Shown piece by piece: positions 3,816 to 9,529 of a stretch of DNA of 9,529 nt (position 1 is its first letter; each line of letters begins with the position of its first letter). The position numbers and the translations under genes were made by a program. This DNA is from Endomicrobiia bacterium (lineage in GTDB: Bacteria > Elusimicrobiota > Endomicrobiia > Endomicrobiales > Endomicrobiaceae). A model generated the notes under the pieces. It saw nothing but the letters and a program-made list of their open reading frames with translations, did not search any database and was not told the origin of the DNA. The stretch is from contig WQUP01000206.1 of the NCBI GenBank assembly GCA_009782015.1, positions 1-9,529 of the forward strand. The letters are read 5' to 3'.

Positions 3816-3929
3816 ATGAGTACACAGTACAGGGGACAAAGTCCCCACAGCACAGGGAACAAGGTTCCCACAGCACAGCACAGCACAGCACAGCACAGCA
3901 CAGCACAGCACAGCACTACTAATAACTAA
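3816..3929 (+). CDS. Possible 37-aa small ORF containing the pentanucleotide tract
   Basis: ATG at 3816, with AGAGG at 3807-3811 (spacing only 4 nt), reads 37 codons to TAA at 3927-3929. The N-terminal half is encoded by two palindromic 23-bp units. The C-terminal part is three TAQHS repeats from the pentanucleotide tract, then TTNN. The peptide has low complexity, no signal sequence and no family I recognise. The pentamer has no stop codon in any frame, so an open frame here proves little. A promoter candidate upstream and terminator downstream fit either a small peptide gene or an untranslated structured RNA. Adding one pentamer would redirect the frame into a further open stretch ending at TAG 4099-4101. 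Confidence 0.25.
   Translation: MSTQYRGQSPHSTGNKVPTAQHSTAQHSTAQHSTTNN
3824..3869 (+). repeat. Tandem pair of 23-bp palindromic units with a compensatory change
   Basis: Units 3824-3846 and 3847-3869 differ at four positions. Each holds a 6-bp hairpin: GGGGAC-AAA-GTCCCC (3832-3846) and GGGAAC-AAG-GTTCCC (3855-3869). Two differences are paired: a G-C pair in the first is an A-T pair in the second, so the stem is kept. Both units begin ACAGYAC, the sequence that then expands into the pentanucleotide tract. Confidence 0.8.
3870..3916 (+). repeat. Pentanucleotide microsatellite (ACAGC), 9.4 copies
   Basis: Nine perfect copies of ACAGC plus AC, uninterrupted over 47 bp. Tracts like this change length by slipped-strand mispairing and underlie phase variation in many bacteria. 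It starts exactly at the end of the second 23-bp palindromic unit, and lies about 240 bp upstream of the autotransporter start and downstream of the divergent fic promoter. Confidence 0.95.
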
Positions 3930-6728: not shown

Positions 6729-6775
6729 AAAAAACCGCCGCCCGCGAAAACAAGTTCGCGGGCGGCGGTTTTTTT
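6729..6775 (+). terminator. Strong bidirectional terminator after the autotransporter
   Basis: A perfect 16-bp stem (6733-6748 with 6755-6770) around the 6-nt loop AACAAG, core CCGCCGCCCGCGAA. It is followed by T-run 6769-6775 and preceded by A-run 6729-6734, so it works on both strands. It separates the autotransporter from the convergent small gene ending at 6899, whose stop lies about 125 bp away. Confidence 0.95.
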
Positions 6776-6799: not shown

Positions 6800-6861
6800 C
6801 CCCGACTACTACCTTCGGGGACAGGCTGCTATTGAATAACAGCATTCAATAAATTTCGGGG
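6800..6861 (-). repeat. Compound hairpin region (copy C of the 9-nt-loop family)
   Basis: CCCCGA (6800-6805) with TCGGGG (6815-6820) around a 9-nt loop; on the minus strand the loop is AGGTAGTAG and the flank is TGTC. The same CCCCGA can instead pair with TCGGGG at 6856-6861, enclosing another hairpin TATTGAAT (6830-6837) with ATTCAATA (6844-6851). GGATCCC at 6792-6798 and GGGGATGACA at 6858-6867 give the usual edges of this family. Confidence 0.6.
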
Positions 6862-6898
6862 ATGACAAAAGAGCTGAATTGAAACCTGCTTTTGTCAA
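6862..6898. repeat. Inverted repeat with 17-nt spacer, copy 1
   Basis: TGACAAAAG (6863-6871) pairs with CTTTTGTCA (6889-6897) across 17 nt ending AAACCTG. A second copy with the same spacer length is at 7415-7451; the two bracket the small secreted-protein gene. This copy abuts the stop codon of that gene at 6899-6901. Confidence 0.75.
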
Positions 6899-7391: not shown

Positions 7392-7416
7392 ATCCCCGAT
7401 TAAGACATTCAGGGAT
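7392..7416 (-). repeat. TGTCAT-flanked hairpin with 9-nt loop (copy D)
   Basis: ATCCCCGA (7392-7399) with TCAGGGAT (7409-7416), one G-T wobble, around a loop that reads ATGTCTTAA on the minus strand. TGTCAT flanks it on that strand, as in copy A. It lies between the small gene's RBS and its presumed promoter, so it would sit in that mRNA's leader. Confidence 0.75.
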
Positions 7417-7451
7417 GACAAAAGAGAGGAACTAAAACCTGCTTTTGTCAT
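7415..7451. repeat. Inverted repeat with 17-nt spacer, copy 2
   Basis: Perfect 10-bp arms ATGACAAAAG (7415-7424) and CTTTTGTCAT (7442-7451) with a 17-nt spacer ending AAACCTG, as in the copy at 6862-6898. It overlaps the edge of hairpin copy D, so each half carries a TGTCAT boundary. Confidence 0.75.
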
Positions 7452-7526: not shown

Positions 7527-7555
7527 TTGACACCATTTTACCTTTTACCTATTAT
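7527..7555 (+). promoter_or_regulatory. Sigma70-type promoter of the three-gene operon
   Basis: TTGACA (7527-7532), 17-bp spacer, TATTAT (7550-7555; 5 of 6). Predicted start is near 7562, leaving a leader of about 25 nt before the ATG at 7587. Confidence 0.75.
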
Positions 7556-7586
7556 ATATCATCTGTCGTTAAAAAAGGGGGGTATT

Positions 7587-7850
7587 ATGGAAACGGCTTT
7601 AAGAATCAGAAACATCTTGTTTAAGGCTTTTGTCATCAATTACGCTGTTATTTTTATCGTGTGGCTTATAATGCTGACAGGATTATACAATATTTTAATG
7701 GACTTTTTTTTCGGCTTTGATCCGCAGCGCACGGCAATATTTATGGTACATCTTCTGGGAGCGTGGAAAATTGCCGGCGTGACGCTTTTTCTGATTCCGG
7801 CCGCGGCGATTCATTGGGAATACAGGAAAGGCAGAAGATTGGAAGATTAG
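7587..7850 (+). CDS. Small two-TM membrane protein, DUF6868-like
   Basis: 87 aa from ATG 7587, preceded by a purine-rich AAAAAAGGGGGG (7571-7582). An ATG at 7521 extends the frame upstream but lies before the promoter and has no SD, so I reject it. It has two hydrophobic segments (about 12-34 and 58-78) with a loop containing FGFDPQRTAIFMVH, and a basic C-terminus. The layout (LR...F..FVINYAVIF.WL..., then a short loop and ...H.LGAWKIAGVTLFLIP) resembles the uncharacterised DUF6868 family; this is from memory and moderate at best. It is the first gene of a probable operon with the phosphatase and G1P dehydrogenase. The last residues (RRLED) and stop are encoded inside the octamer palindrome at 7833-7908, so the C-terminus has probably been rewritten by that repeat. 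Confidence 0.75.
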   Translation: METALRIRNILFKAFVINYAVIFIVWLIMLTGLYNILMDFFFGFDPQRTAIFMVHLLGAWKIAGVTLFLIPAAAIHWEYRKGRRLED

Positions 7851-7908
7851 AAGTTTGGAAGCTTGGCAACTGCCAAACTTCTAAGCCCTCCAAGCTCTCT
7901 AAACTTCC
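7833..7908. repeat. Octamer-built imperfect palindrome 1, spanning a stop codon
   Basis: The left arm is four tandem 8-bp units RGAAGNTT: AGAAGATT, GGAAGATT, AGAAGTTT, GGAAGCTT (7833-7864). The right arm (7875-7908) read backwards has the same kind of units, AGAAGTTT, GGAGGGCTT, AGAGAGCTT, GGAAGTTT. The central 12 bp pair perfectly (7847-7858 with 7873-7884). The stop codon of the small membrane gene (7848-7850) is inside the left arm; the right arm ends 17 nt before the phosphatase ATG. Confidence 0.85.
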
Positions 7909-7925
7909 GCCGCATAGGAAAACGA

Positions 7926-8597
7926 ATGAAAAAGACGGCGCTTATCAGCGATTTTGACGGGACTTTGTCAAAAGAAGATTTTTTCAATATGGTTATTGAC
8001 AGGCTTTTGTCAAAAGATGATATACAGCCCTGGCAGGATTATCTTGCCGGCAGAATAACCCACCTGGAAGCGTTAAGCCGCATATTTGCCAAAGTGCGCA
8101 TACCGCAGGCAGAGCTGGATATTTTTATACAAAGCATAGAGATAGACCCGAAAGCCGAAGAGACTTTTGAGCTGTGCAAAGAACTTGCTATACCTATATA
8201 TATATGCAGCGCGGGAATGGATTACTACATTTTAAAAAAGATTCCGCAGCTTATTGAAAAATACAACATTACAATAGTCGCCAACAAAGCCGAATACTCT
8301 CCGGAAACCGGCTTTGAGGTTACCCCGCCGCCGGTTGGCAGCCTTTTTTACAGTAAAAACACCGGCATTGCTAAAGACGCGCTTGTGGAATCTTTAAAGA
8401 AACAAGGTTTCTTTACGATATTTGCCGGAGACGGCAGACCCGATATCAAAGCCGCCAAGATTGCCGACGCGGTTTTTGCAAAAAGCGTTCTGCTCAACCT
8501 TTGCAGAGAGCAAAATATAAGGACTTTAAAATTTGACGGGTTTGGGGATATTACGGAATACATAGAACGGCGATGCGGGGATGCAGAGAGGCAGTGA
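7926..8597 (+). CDS. HAD-superfamily phosphatase of the MtnX/phosphoserine-phosphatase type
   Basis: 223 aa from ATG 7926 with AGGAA 6 nt upstream; an in-frame ATG at 7863 lies inside the palindrome and gives a poor N-terminus, so I reject it. HAD motifs: DFDGT with nucleophile D9 and acid/base D11; CSAGMD with S95; a Lys in the SKNTGIAKDAL segment; GDGRPD with D169 and D173. The stretch AKSVLLNLCREQNI and the GMDYYILKKI segment closely recall Bacillus MtnX, the methionine-salvage HK-MTPenyl-1-P phosphatase, so the fold is clear. No other methionine-salvage gene is nearby. The neighbour is a glycerol-1-phosphate dehydrogenase, so a sugar-alcohol or glycerol phosphate substrate is more likely (inference). 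The C-terminal residues after YIE (RRCGDAERQ) and the stop are encoded in the second octamer palindrome. Confidence 0.88.
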   Translation: MKKTALISDFDGTLSKEDFFNMVIDRLLSKDDIQPWQDYLAGRITHLEALSRIFAKVRIPQAELDIFIQSIEIDPKAEETFELCKELAIPIYICSAGMDYYILKKIPQLIEKYNITIVANKAEYSPETGFEVTPPPVGSLFYSKNTGIAKDALVESLKKQGFFTIFAGDGRPDIKAAKIADAVFAKSVLLNLCREQNIRTLKFDGFGDITEYIERRCGDAERQ

Positions 8598-8671
8598 TGC
8601 AGTGTAAAAGCAACAGCTAAAGCCTTTGTCTTTGCTCCGCATCTTCGCATCCCTGCGTCCTCGCATCGCCG
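8568..8671. repeat. Octamer-built imperfect palindrome 2, spanning a stop codon
   Basis: Left arm: CGGC plus GATGCGGG, GATGCAGA, GAGGCAGT, GATGCAGT (8572-8603). The right arm (8636-8671) read backwards: CGGC plus GATGCGAG, GACGCAGG, GATGCGAA, GATGCGGA. Ungapped, 27 of the first 35 positions pair. The 32-nt loop is 8604-8635. The phosphatase stop (8595-8597) is in the left arm and the right arm ends 17 nt before the next ATG. It shares architecture but not sequence with 7833-7908. Confidence 0.85.
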
Positions 8672-8688
8672 TTTTACAGGAGTTTTTC

Positions 8689-9529
8689 ATGCCATTAAAC
8701 AAAGCGATAAACATTCCGTCGCTTTTAAAAATCGGAAGCGGGAAGACCGCCAAAATCGGCAAGTACCTTTTTGACAGGAAGTTTTTTAAAACCGCGCTGT
8801 TTTTCAGCGACGGGATAGAAGATATTGTTGCGGACAAGCTTTATTCGGGATTTAAAGAACACGGCATAGAGATAGTCCGAAAGGACTTTATTTCCGACAT
8901 CAACATTGAAAATATAATACACACGGCTTTCAAAGTGCCGCAGGGAACGGACGTGATTATAGGCATAGGCGGCGGGAAGTCGCTGGATTACAGCAAGTAC
9001 TGCGCGCATACCTTGCAGCTGCCGTTTATAAGCGTGCCGACATCCGTGTCAAACGACGGCTTTTGCAGCCCGACAGCTTCGCTGCTTGTTGAGGGTAAAA
9101 GAAAAAGCGTTTATGCCAACATCCCTTACGGCGTTGTGGCGGATTTGGACGTAATATCCGGCGCGCCAAAAGAGACTTTTTACTCGGGGCTTGGAGATAT
9201 GATATCCAAGGCGACTGCCTTGTGGGATTGGAAAAGGGCGTTTGATAAAGGCTTGAGCGATTACAACGATTTTTCGGCAATGCTTGCCTACAACTCCTTG
9301 GACGCTTTGCACTATACGGGAGAACGAGCCGCTCCGGAGGAACTTTATTCCCGGGAATTTTGTTCCAGACTTGCAAACTCTCTGGTTTTAAGCGGCATAG
9401 CCATGGAAGTAGCCGGCTCTTCAAGGCCTGCAAGCGGGAGCGAGCATCTTATTTCGCACGCTTTGGACTATATTTCCGCAAACCCGAGAATGCACGGACT
9501 TCAAGTCGGAGCGGCAACGTACCTTTGCG
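8689..9529 (+). CDS. sn-glycerol-1-phosphate dehydrogenase family protein (AraM/EgsA type), 3'-truncated
   Basis: 280 complete codons before the window ends; the family is usually 350-400 aa, so a C-terminal portion is missing. Start ATG 8689 has AGGAG at 8678-8682, 6 nt spacing. The family reduces dihydroxyacetone phosphate to sn-glycerol-1-phosphate with NAD(P)H. Visible signatures: nucleotide-binding GIGGGKSLD (G94-D100), the family hallmark VPTSVSNDGFCSPTASL (from V116), and metal ligands D170 (GLGDMISK), H253 (SGSEHLISH) and H269 (MHGLQVG), all present. GSSRPASGSEH is also typical. Compared with glycerol dehydrogenase or dehydroquinate synthase, the ND-G-x-x-SP segment favours G1PDH; the more usual residue is His rather than Asn at position 122. 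It is third in the operon; what lies downstream (for example a prenyltransferase) is outside the window. Confidence 0.9.
   Translation, partial: MPLNKAINIPSLLKIGSGKTAKIGKYLFDRKFFKTALFFSDGIEDIVADKLYSGFKEHGIEIVRKDFISDINIENIIHTAFKVPQGTDVIIGIGGGKSLDYSKYCAHTLQLPFISVPTSVSNDGFCSPTASLLVEGKRKSVYANIPYGVVADLDVISGAPKETFYSGLGDMISKATALWDWKRAFDKGLSDYNDFSAMLAYNSLDALHYTGERAAPEELYSREFCSRLANSLVLSGIAMEVAGSSRPASGSEHLISHALDYISANPRMHGLQVGAATYLC

Follow-up and report, generated by a model that had tools for sequence, protein, structure and literature searches.

Palindromes with arms of tandem heptamers or octamers form a genome-wide family in an Endomicrobiia bacterium, and their paired arms may be exchanged by template switching

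The locus studied here raises the question of why two successive gene junctions should each carry a palindrome with arms of tandem octamers when the octamers at the two junctions differ. The window, i.e., the whole stretch of 9,529 nucleotides that was analysed, is contig C206 (GenBank WQUP01000206.1) of an Endomicrobiia bacterium whose genome assembly (1,578,700 bases in 290 contigs) is 71% complete. Three of its genes, coding in order for a membrane-type protein, a HAD phosphatase and a dehydrogenase-like protein, are parted by palindrome 1 and palindrome 2. The nearest named kin of the HAD protein are Endomicrobium MAGs, with 79% identity to Candidatus Endomicrobium neocapritermitis. Gene calls were made by a simple purpose-written script, and the features are as follows:

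7536..7572, minus strand: third element, a likely decayed right half with heptamers TTTTACC (complement GGTAAAA) and cap CTGTCGTTAA (TRF period 7, 7536-7554)
7587..7850, plus strand: gene for a small membrane-type protein, without Pfam or NCBIfam match
7827..7832, plus strand: palindrome 1, left outer cap AAAGGC, within the final codons of the upstream gene (sequence)
7834..7865, plus strand: palindrome 1, left arm of four octamers GAAGNTTR (TRF period 8; sequence)
7866..7873, plus strand: palindrome 1, inner block or loop GCAACTGC (sequence, fold)
7874..7907, minus strand: palindrome 1, right arm, imperfect, with two units of 9 nt (sequence, inverted repeat for the inner part, fold)
7908..7912, minus strand: palindrome 1, right outer cap CGCCG, 13 nt ahead of the ATG at 7926 (sequence)
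7926..8597, plus strand: gene for an MtnX-like HAD-IB phosphatase (TIGR01489 above cut-off)
8566..8571, plus strand: palindrome 2, left outer cap AACGGC (sequence, aligned family arms)
8572..8603, plus strand: palindrome 2, left arm of four octamers of class GATGCRRN (TRF period 8)
8604..8635, no strand assigned: palindrome 2, core with inner blocks CAACAGC and AAAGCCTTTGTCTTTGC (sequence, fold)
8636..8667, minus strand: palindrome 2, right arm of four octamers, complement of GATGCGAG GACGCAGG GATGCGAA GATGCGGA (sequence, inverted repeat, fold)
8668..8673, minus strand: palindrome 2, right outer cap GCCGTT (sequence, inverted repeat)
8689..9528, plus strand, leaving the window: iron-containing alcohol or glycerol-1-phosphate dehydrogenase-like gene (PF13685; NF002022 below cut-off)

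The first-pass annotation, made from the letters alone, had described two strong palindromes with tandem units, and several measures agree with it. TRF reports period 8 at 7834-7866 and 8572-8604, the longest inverted repeat within the window is 8563-8676, and the predicted folds of palindrome 1 (-32.2 kcal/mol, z -5.07) and palindrome 2 (-66.5 kcal/mol, z -8.76) were each equalled by 0/200 shuffles. The left-arm units are GAAGATTG GAAGATTA GAAGTTTG GAAGCTTG in palindrome 1 (7834-7865) and GATGCGGG GATGCAGA GAGGCAGT GATGCAGT in palindrome 2 (8572-8603). As had also been noticed, both left arms contain the stop codon of the upstream gene (TAG at 7848-7850 and TGA at 8595-8597, respectively). 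The octameric reading holds for both left arms and for the right arm of palindrome 2, and fails for the right arm of palindrome 1, where two 9-nt units appear when the arm is read inward. Likewise, the palindromes are unrelated as far as their units go, but both have an AAMGGC-type left outer cap and an inner GCAAC block, and the unit classes of both fall in one larger class set; AACGRC-type caps, to which the AAAGGC of palindrome 1 is comparable, turn up again in aligned arms of the family described below. The claim that each palindrome ends exactly 17 nt before the next start codon depends on where the palindrome is cut: with the caps and further pairing included, the distances become 13 and 12 nt, as pairing in palindrome 2 reaches 8676, ahead of the ATG at 8689. 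The third element lies upstream of the gene at 7587, and the sister species has elements in the matching gap (L233). Rfam gave zero matches at gathering score on the window, and the earlier statement that no standard repeat class fits holds as far as it was checked, i.e., for Rfam at that score and for a general link to RAYT genes (see below).

The octamer palindromes prove to be part of a genome-wide family rather than a feature of two sites alone: many intergenic gaps in the source bacterium and two close relatives hold palindromes with arms of about four units. The check proposed with the first-pass annotation, a search for further cases alongside shuffled sequence, was run; further cases were found in number, and shuffles were not equally rich in them. 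In 326,119 unmasked bases of the window's own genome (G000), 111 hairpins score at least 30, and three dinucleotide shuffles give none; by arm period, 41 of these are of period 7, 34 of period 8 and 3 of another period, with 33 showing no clear period. The sister species (G004) has 116 such hairpins in 519,103 bases against a shuffle mean of 2.0, with 55 of period 7 and 22 of period 8, while G003, of the same genus, has 3 hairpins in 142,809 bases (1.7 in shuffles), 0 of them periodic. When tandem arrays were sought without requiring pairing, periods 7 and 8 accounted for 116 and 79 of 230 arrays in G000 (shuffle 2/14) and for 279 and 120 of 507 in 899,320 bases of G004 (shuffle 8/63); G003 yielded 2 + 2 arrays of periods 7 and 8, and its shuffle 2 + 0. 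Pattern searches of the window's own genome returned 96 + 85 matches to three GATGC-N3 units (at most 1 mismatch; reversed control 0) and 282 + 280 matches to three AGTGRAG units (at most 2 mismatches; control 0), where matches overlap and are not counts of elements. One further reversed-pattern control was void because it returned the pattern's own counts (59 each). One heptamer and one octamer element were queried against a plasmid collection, and neither matched.

Some of these samples were selected. Of 60 contigs retrieved from G000, 24 were fully masked and therefore left out, and 16 G000 contigs and several G004 stretches had been chosen for having pattern matches. G000 without the chosen contigs and without C28 still holds 30 periodic hairpins in 165,421 bases, which is a lower-bound density since this set lacks the contigs of the same number range that have matches.

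Aligned arms show a common plan, namely an outer cap AACGRC, about four 7- or 8-nt units, an inner block, a core and a mirrored arm. The inner block is GATACGGCAA in the AGTGRAG class and G[GC][CT]AACGRCAAA in the GATGC class, where classes are our own motif definitions (nine in G000 and fourteen in G004). Arm length varies little, whichever the unit size: 426/594 arrays measure 28-36 nt (period 7, 88/116 in G000 and 194/279 in G004; period 8, 61/79 and 83/120, respectively), and just 10/594 exceed 42 nt. The elements also have a polarity. The 5' arm is more than half purine in 75/75 periodic hairpins of G000 and 76/77 of G004, and arrays at most 200 bp apart follow the order purine-then-pyrimidine in 58 cases in G000 (opposite order 2, alike 8) and 113 in G004 (opposite order 2, alike 9). 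Both arms of such a pair belong to one unit class in 54 of the 55 classified pairs in G000 (58 pairs, 3 unclassified; 0.19 by chance) and in 90 of 96 in G004 (113 pairs, 17 unclassified; 0.115 by chance). The single disagreement in G000 is a GATGC element nested within an AGTG element (L092:6390-6584), and four of the six in G004 set AGTTAAT against AATTAAC types.

The core behaves differently from the arms. In G004 it consists of two small hairpins, TTTCGGC..GCCGAAA and TTTTCGC..GCGAAAA, and a core survey (64 rows, with most elements counted once per strand) found it with arms of types AGTTAGT, GGTAATA, AGAGAAT, AGTGAAG, AGTGTGG, AATTAAC and AGTTCAA. Arm class is thus independent of the core, and one core goes with many classes. 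Searched as one exact pattern (one hairpin order, 3-nt loops), the two-hairpin core occurs in G000, G001, G004, G023 and G031 only among 60 genomes.

Orthologous junctions are where the family is most informative. The retrieved parts of the two genomes, G000 and G004, have 52 neighbouring gene pairs in common; both species have arrays at 16 of these junctions, G000 alone at 11, G004 alone at 4 and neither species at 21 (odds ratio 7.6, Fisher p 0.0018), with at least two one-sided junctions (L172:5614-7404 and L101:2229-2818) being elements missed by the search and seen by eye. At the 16 co-occupied junctions, with sequence comparisons partly judged by eye, the unit classes differ in 12, agree in 2 and are doubtful in 2. 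About three of the 12 differ by neighbouring classes only (L131:2314, L171:9038 and L171:11800), and another (L165:3367) falls within a 1-kb gap in G004. The agreeing sites are the HAD-dehydrogenase junction (GATGC) and L172:8321 (AGTGAAG with AGTGTAG); the doubtful ones are L132:4298 and the upstream gap of the window, where G000 has half an element only. Since 11 and 4 junctions are filled in one species only, gain or loss of entire elements may occur as well.

The window's own junctions, again compared partly by eye, illustrate both outcomes. The gap between the membrane-protein and HAD genes holds octamers in G000 and AGTGAAG heptamers in G004, both starting at the same codon. The HAD-dehydrogenase gap holds GATGC octamers in both species, with positions 8562-8600 identical to the orthologous L061:9230-9268 and the right arm lost in G004; that this junction has the same class in both is an observation against class change. 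Elsewhere, G001 has GGTAACA heptamers in this gap, L063 a further octamer and L062 a short stretch of AAGTTCAAAGTG; the gap is free of elements in seven outgroup loci with both genes (L065, L149-L154). Elements also stand between infA, rpsM, rpsK and rpsD in the ribosomal protein gene cluster, where the S11-S4 gap, judged by eye, is filled in five of seven genomes with five different units, and has no element in G003 and G018. One architecture, many classes and orthologous sites that differ in class together give good support to the earlier proposal that a common generating process, and not simple copying, lies behind the two palindromes.

We tentatively favour the reading, which we hold to be nearly as probable as not, that both palindromes belong to this family as DNA-level repeats in which template switching at the replication fork replaces both arms jointly. 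The observations are that the elements follow one plan and are abundant, that they have a polarity and arms within a narrow range of length, that the two arms agree in class, that arm class and core are independent, that classes differ at orthologous sites, and that neighbours of the same class are in excess. By the proposed mechanism, an extruded palindrome hairpin would stall DNA synthesis, and the nascent strand would switch, via the short common caps or inner blocks, to another and often nearby palindrome and copy its units. A second, intramolecular switch would then write the new arm onto its old partner, such that both arms change class and the site, the caps and often the core persist, and loss of longer palindromes would keep the arms near 32 nt. 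The first filling of an empty gap could come about by copying through template switching or by a transposase. Template switching between inverted repeats is described as homogenising their arms in the part of the literature source at hand (PMC8604942).

Retained caps and cores, partner matching, same-class neighbours and mixed arrays point to such in-place replacement of both arms. In G004, arms match their own partner better than permuted ones (20.94 vs 19.26, 0/2000 in a clustered permutation, with 100 of 113 pairs in clusters); the effect is weak in G000 (20.70 vs 19.87, 75/2000, 47 of 58 pairs in clusters), where arms of the commonest class, AGTGRAG, match other elements slightly better than their own partner (21.9 vs 23.6). 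A cruder first rank test had suggested no partner matching (0.443 in G000 and 0.575 in G004). Consecutive elements share a class in 15/50 cases against 8.0 expected (23/2000) and in 22/76 against 9.6 (0/2000), and unit classes are mixed within 30/156 and 45/236 arrays, with 39 and 163 arrays unclassified. A 28-mer is shared with another array by 29/163 and 97/297 arrays, i.e., there are exact arm copies at separate loci, which insertion explains equally well. All comparisons are between species rather than near-identical strains, and we infer template switching from its presumed products, no event in progress having been seen. The shared caps are just 6-14 nt long, an observation that counts against template switching. 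The first-pass idea of octamer growth by template switching survives in part: matched partners, mixed-unit arrays and same-class neighbours fit switching, whereas 7-nt units outnumber 8-nt units and arms stay near four units, with no free growth. We also considered whether a lack of SbcCD acts as the switch. Not one of the 37 genomes searched has SbcD above cut-off, with weak matches below it in six including G001. This is counted in favour of template switching, but SbcD does not separate carriers from non-carriers, and its absence is rejected as the switch.

The main rival to template switching is MITE-like transposition, and both may act. The palindromes would be non-autonomous elements with terminal inverted repeats made of iterated transposase-binding sites, the unit classes would be families, and co-occupied sites would be independent insertions into the sole tolerated spot, between stop codon and ribosome-binding site. 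We give this reading about one chance in three. Terminal inverted repeats are indeed present and caps recur, many loci share identical arm stretches, some sites are filled in one species only, and at L092:6390-6584 a GATGC element is nested within an AGTG element. The patchy distribution of the family speaks for it as well. Of 60 genomes, 10 contain the GATGC pattern and 12 the AGTGRAG pattern, and in several of them there are just one or two matches; G000, G001 and G004 are rich in both, and G002 and G003, of the same genus as G000, have neither. In a second genus, G028 and G031 have both patterns, and G023 clearly has AGTGRAG only, as its 8 GATGC matches do not exceed 7 control matches. A survey of 18 unmasked stretches from 17 relatives gave five with convincing periodic palindromes (from G001, G031, G023 and G014), one palindrome of another heptamer in G039, a doubtful, widely separated pair in G036, and ten stretches without any period-7 or period-8 hairpin.

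Also in favour of transposition, RAYT-size Y1 genes occur in the carriers G001, G004 and G031 and not in G002 or G003, in a search that covered Y1_Tnp as the only transposase family, and seven of the loci found were read (three in G004, two in G001 and one each in G031 and G018). GGGGACG-type ends stand on at least one side in 6/7 and on both sides in 4, and the seventh locus, the RAYT gene at L106 (G004), has just upstream of it a perfect family palindrome, the best-scoring of the family. L106 is, however, the only one of the seven beside a family palindrome, with L110 (G031) having a single AATTAAC-type array upstream, and the linkage is not general. G018 has a RAYT gene and yet the 17 kb read from it are free of periodic palindromes, and the Y1 search gave no match in the carriers G023 (99% complete) and G000 (71% complete); a carrier such as G023 without a Y1 match means that a RAYT is not required. 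RAYT/REPIN activity as a general source is therefore rejected. No clean target duplication was seen, occupied and empty pairs (those between G000 and G004, and G003 at the S11-S4 gap) being too diverged to show one, and separate families would predict neither one core with many arm classes nor caps that stay constant while arms differ.

Less probable again, and in our view improbable, is that the elements are RNA hairpins of operon transcripts kept by selection as mRNA stabilisers, processing sites or setters of translation ratio, their repeats merely pairing easily, which the first-pass annotation had put forward for the two palindromes. The predicted folds are strong, many tandem-gap elements lie between the stop codon and the next ribosome-binding site (the outer end is 5-30 nt before the start in 41/69 and 82/128 cases in the two genomes), and unlike units at a single site fold similarly, as is argued for the Nostoc P6b stem in the sections available (PMC4476775). 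However, divergent gaps are filled as often (5/13 in G000 and 5/22 in G004) as tandem ones (59/182 and 60/330), with convergent gaps at 4/10 and 4/22; fill rates this similar mean that the elements are not tied to transcript ends. Moreover, the occupancy of a given junction differs between species. Among arm mismatches in tandem gaps, G.U on the sense strand is not above A.C (92 vs 95, p 0.88; 137 vs 114, p 0.16), so no selection on sense RNA is seen, and the proposal is rejected in this form. Placement bears on two further claims of the first-pass annotation. The 17-nt spacing is not fixed: across tandem gaps, the median distance is 23 nt in each of the two genomes, with quartiles at 14.5-79.5 and 16-65.5 nt. 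Insertion at stop codons is too narrow a description: the arm starts within or ahead of the stop codon in 27/69 and 44/128 tandem cases, and gaps of every orientation carry elements. Stop-codon-specific insertion is accordingly rejected, divergent gaps being filled as often.

Transcription terminators or attenuators are a very unlikely reading: stable hairpins do lie close to gene ends, but a run of five T within 20 nt past the right arm follows in just 12/101 and 40/202 cases, and elements stand inside the infA-rpsM-rpsK-rpsD cluster and in divergent gaps, and intrinsic termination is rejected. Equally remote is de novo synthesis of arms by a telomerase-, retron- or DGR-like enzyme that adds repeats from a template of 7-8 nt, with subsequent folding back, which the purine-first polarity and narrow unit number would suit; long stretches are identical between arrays, units are mixed in some arrays, and with no RVT_1 domain in G000 (71% complete), G001 or G004, a reverse-transcriptase generator is rejected for the carriers of this genus.

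By analogy, the closest known system comes from Nostoc, in whose tRNA-Leu(UAA) group I intron the P6b stem is built of Class I (TDNGATT) or Class II (NNTGAGT) repeats; the origin of these classes is stated as unknown in the parts of that paper available (PMC4476775). As there, we find stems of complementary 7-nt motifs (period-7 hairpins number 41 in G000 and 55 in G004), and very different classes replace each other at one site between lineages with the fold remaining similar. The window's own two palindromes differ in having period 8 against the 7-nt motifs of P6b, and the family as a whole differs in that its units are of 7 or 8 nt, with about four to an arm, that its caps and cores recur, and that its hosts belong to a distant phylum. 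Furthermore, the Nostoc case concerns one intron position with two classes (PMC4476775, same sections), whereas here nine and fourteen classes are spread over many intergenic sites. The window elements are not themselves P6b stems of a tRNA-Leu intron, since they lie between protein genes and have no Rfam match at gathering score.

Other systems resemble the family in part. REP/REPIN sequences with RAYT, as partly excerpted (PMC3116915), are likewise dispersed extragenic inverted pairs with predicted hairpins and several groups per genome; here, in contrast, the arms are tandem units and not one REP sequence, there is no general RAYT tie, and one site has different classes in different species. 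The TAACTGA repeats of Beggiatoaceae, Cyanobacteria and Bacteroidetes share the many short intergenic 7-nt arrays, the presence in ribosomal protein operons and the patchy phylogeny. They differ, in the portions of that account at hand (PMC4679880), in comprising 169 direct-repeat sets, one indirect repeat and one unit sequence in the main genome, in lying mostly directly 5' of start codons, and in having neither mirrored arms nor class switching. The BrickBuilt MITE of Porphyromonas gingivalis is also intergenic and combines inverted ends with tandem repeats in its interior, but according to the available extract (PMC4596501) its leader and tail flank a single array of 23-nt units, its inverted ends are small, it has 19 copies in strain ATCC 33277, and its arms are not described as repeats. 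Nostoc P6b, the TAACTGA heptamers, BrickBuilt and REPINs thus each share part of the plan found here, going by those portions of the sources. Among the matches listed, the open-access literature on repeats or on Endomicrobium contains no description of the family, and an Endomicrobia genome paper uses 'palindrome' for CRISPR only in the text available (PMC11257099).

A broader and more doubtful proposal, to which we give somewhat less than one chance in three, is that these elements are a new class of bacterial palindrome, in which a fixed scaffold (site, caps, arms of about 32 bp and core) has its 7-8 nt units swapped as matched pairs through hairpin-to-hairpin template switching, in concert over neighbouring sites, and that the same process would also explain the class replacements in the Nostoc tRNA intron. 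For the genes concerned, an arm that contains a stop codon also codes for the final residues of the protein encoded upstream, which is the case in the window, and gene-end annotation in carrier genomes should allow for arms that hold stop codons. Class replacement of the Nostoc P6b kind is now observed at numerous sites in a single pair of genomes (G000 and G004), together with recurring caps, recurring cores and same-class neighbours, so that in-place template switching, transposition and RNA selection each give predictions that can be counted. If template switching between palindromes is indeed responsible, this would be a genome that keeps its palindromes and yet rewrites their words.

Thirty-nine nucleotides at the left arm of the second palindrome, which lies between the HAD phosphatase and dehydrogenase genes, are a 100% match between the window (8562-8600) and the orthologous site (L061:9230-9268), in contrast to the neighbouring proteins, whose identity is only 79-80%. 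L061 has lost the right arm of this element.

Y1 transposase genes of RAYT size were found at seven loci (L105-L111) in the carrier genomes G004, G001 and G031 and in the relative G018, and GGGGACG-type ends flank six of the seven on at least one side. A Y1 search of the window's own genome (G000) and two same-genus non-carriers (G002 and G003) returned no match. For SbcD, none of 37 genomes of the phylum scored above the curated cut-off, with weak matches below it in six, while 8 of 14 control genomes passed.

Several further dispersed palindrome families are built without tandem units (TGTCATNC..., GTCATTGCGAGG..., AATTGGGTTTCTC...), and the loop of one tandem-unit element, L096:7178-7381, contains a sequence of these families. 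Their sites are as follows.

L131:4423-4496, palindrome without tandem units
L132:3083-3172, palindrome without tandem units
L102:7547-7645, palindrome without tandem units
L096:3639-3789, palindrome without tandem units

Another short palindrome, GGGATGACAAAAGAG...AACCTGCTTTTGTCA, is present twice in the window (6858-6898 and 7412-7451), and sequence similar to it fills gaps in G004 (L184 and L194).

Two other repeats lie around the autotransporter gene.

Window 3823-3916, in the gap that separates the Fic and autotransporter genes, tandem 23-mers that pass into some ten CACAG pentamers
Window 6729-6774, perfect 20-nt inverted repeat with T6 at its end, directly past the autotransporter gene

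The latter inverted repeat is likely a terminator.
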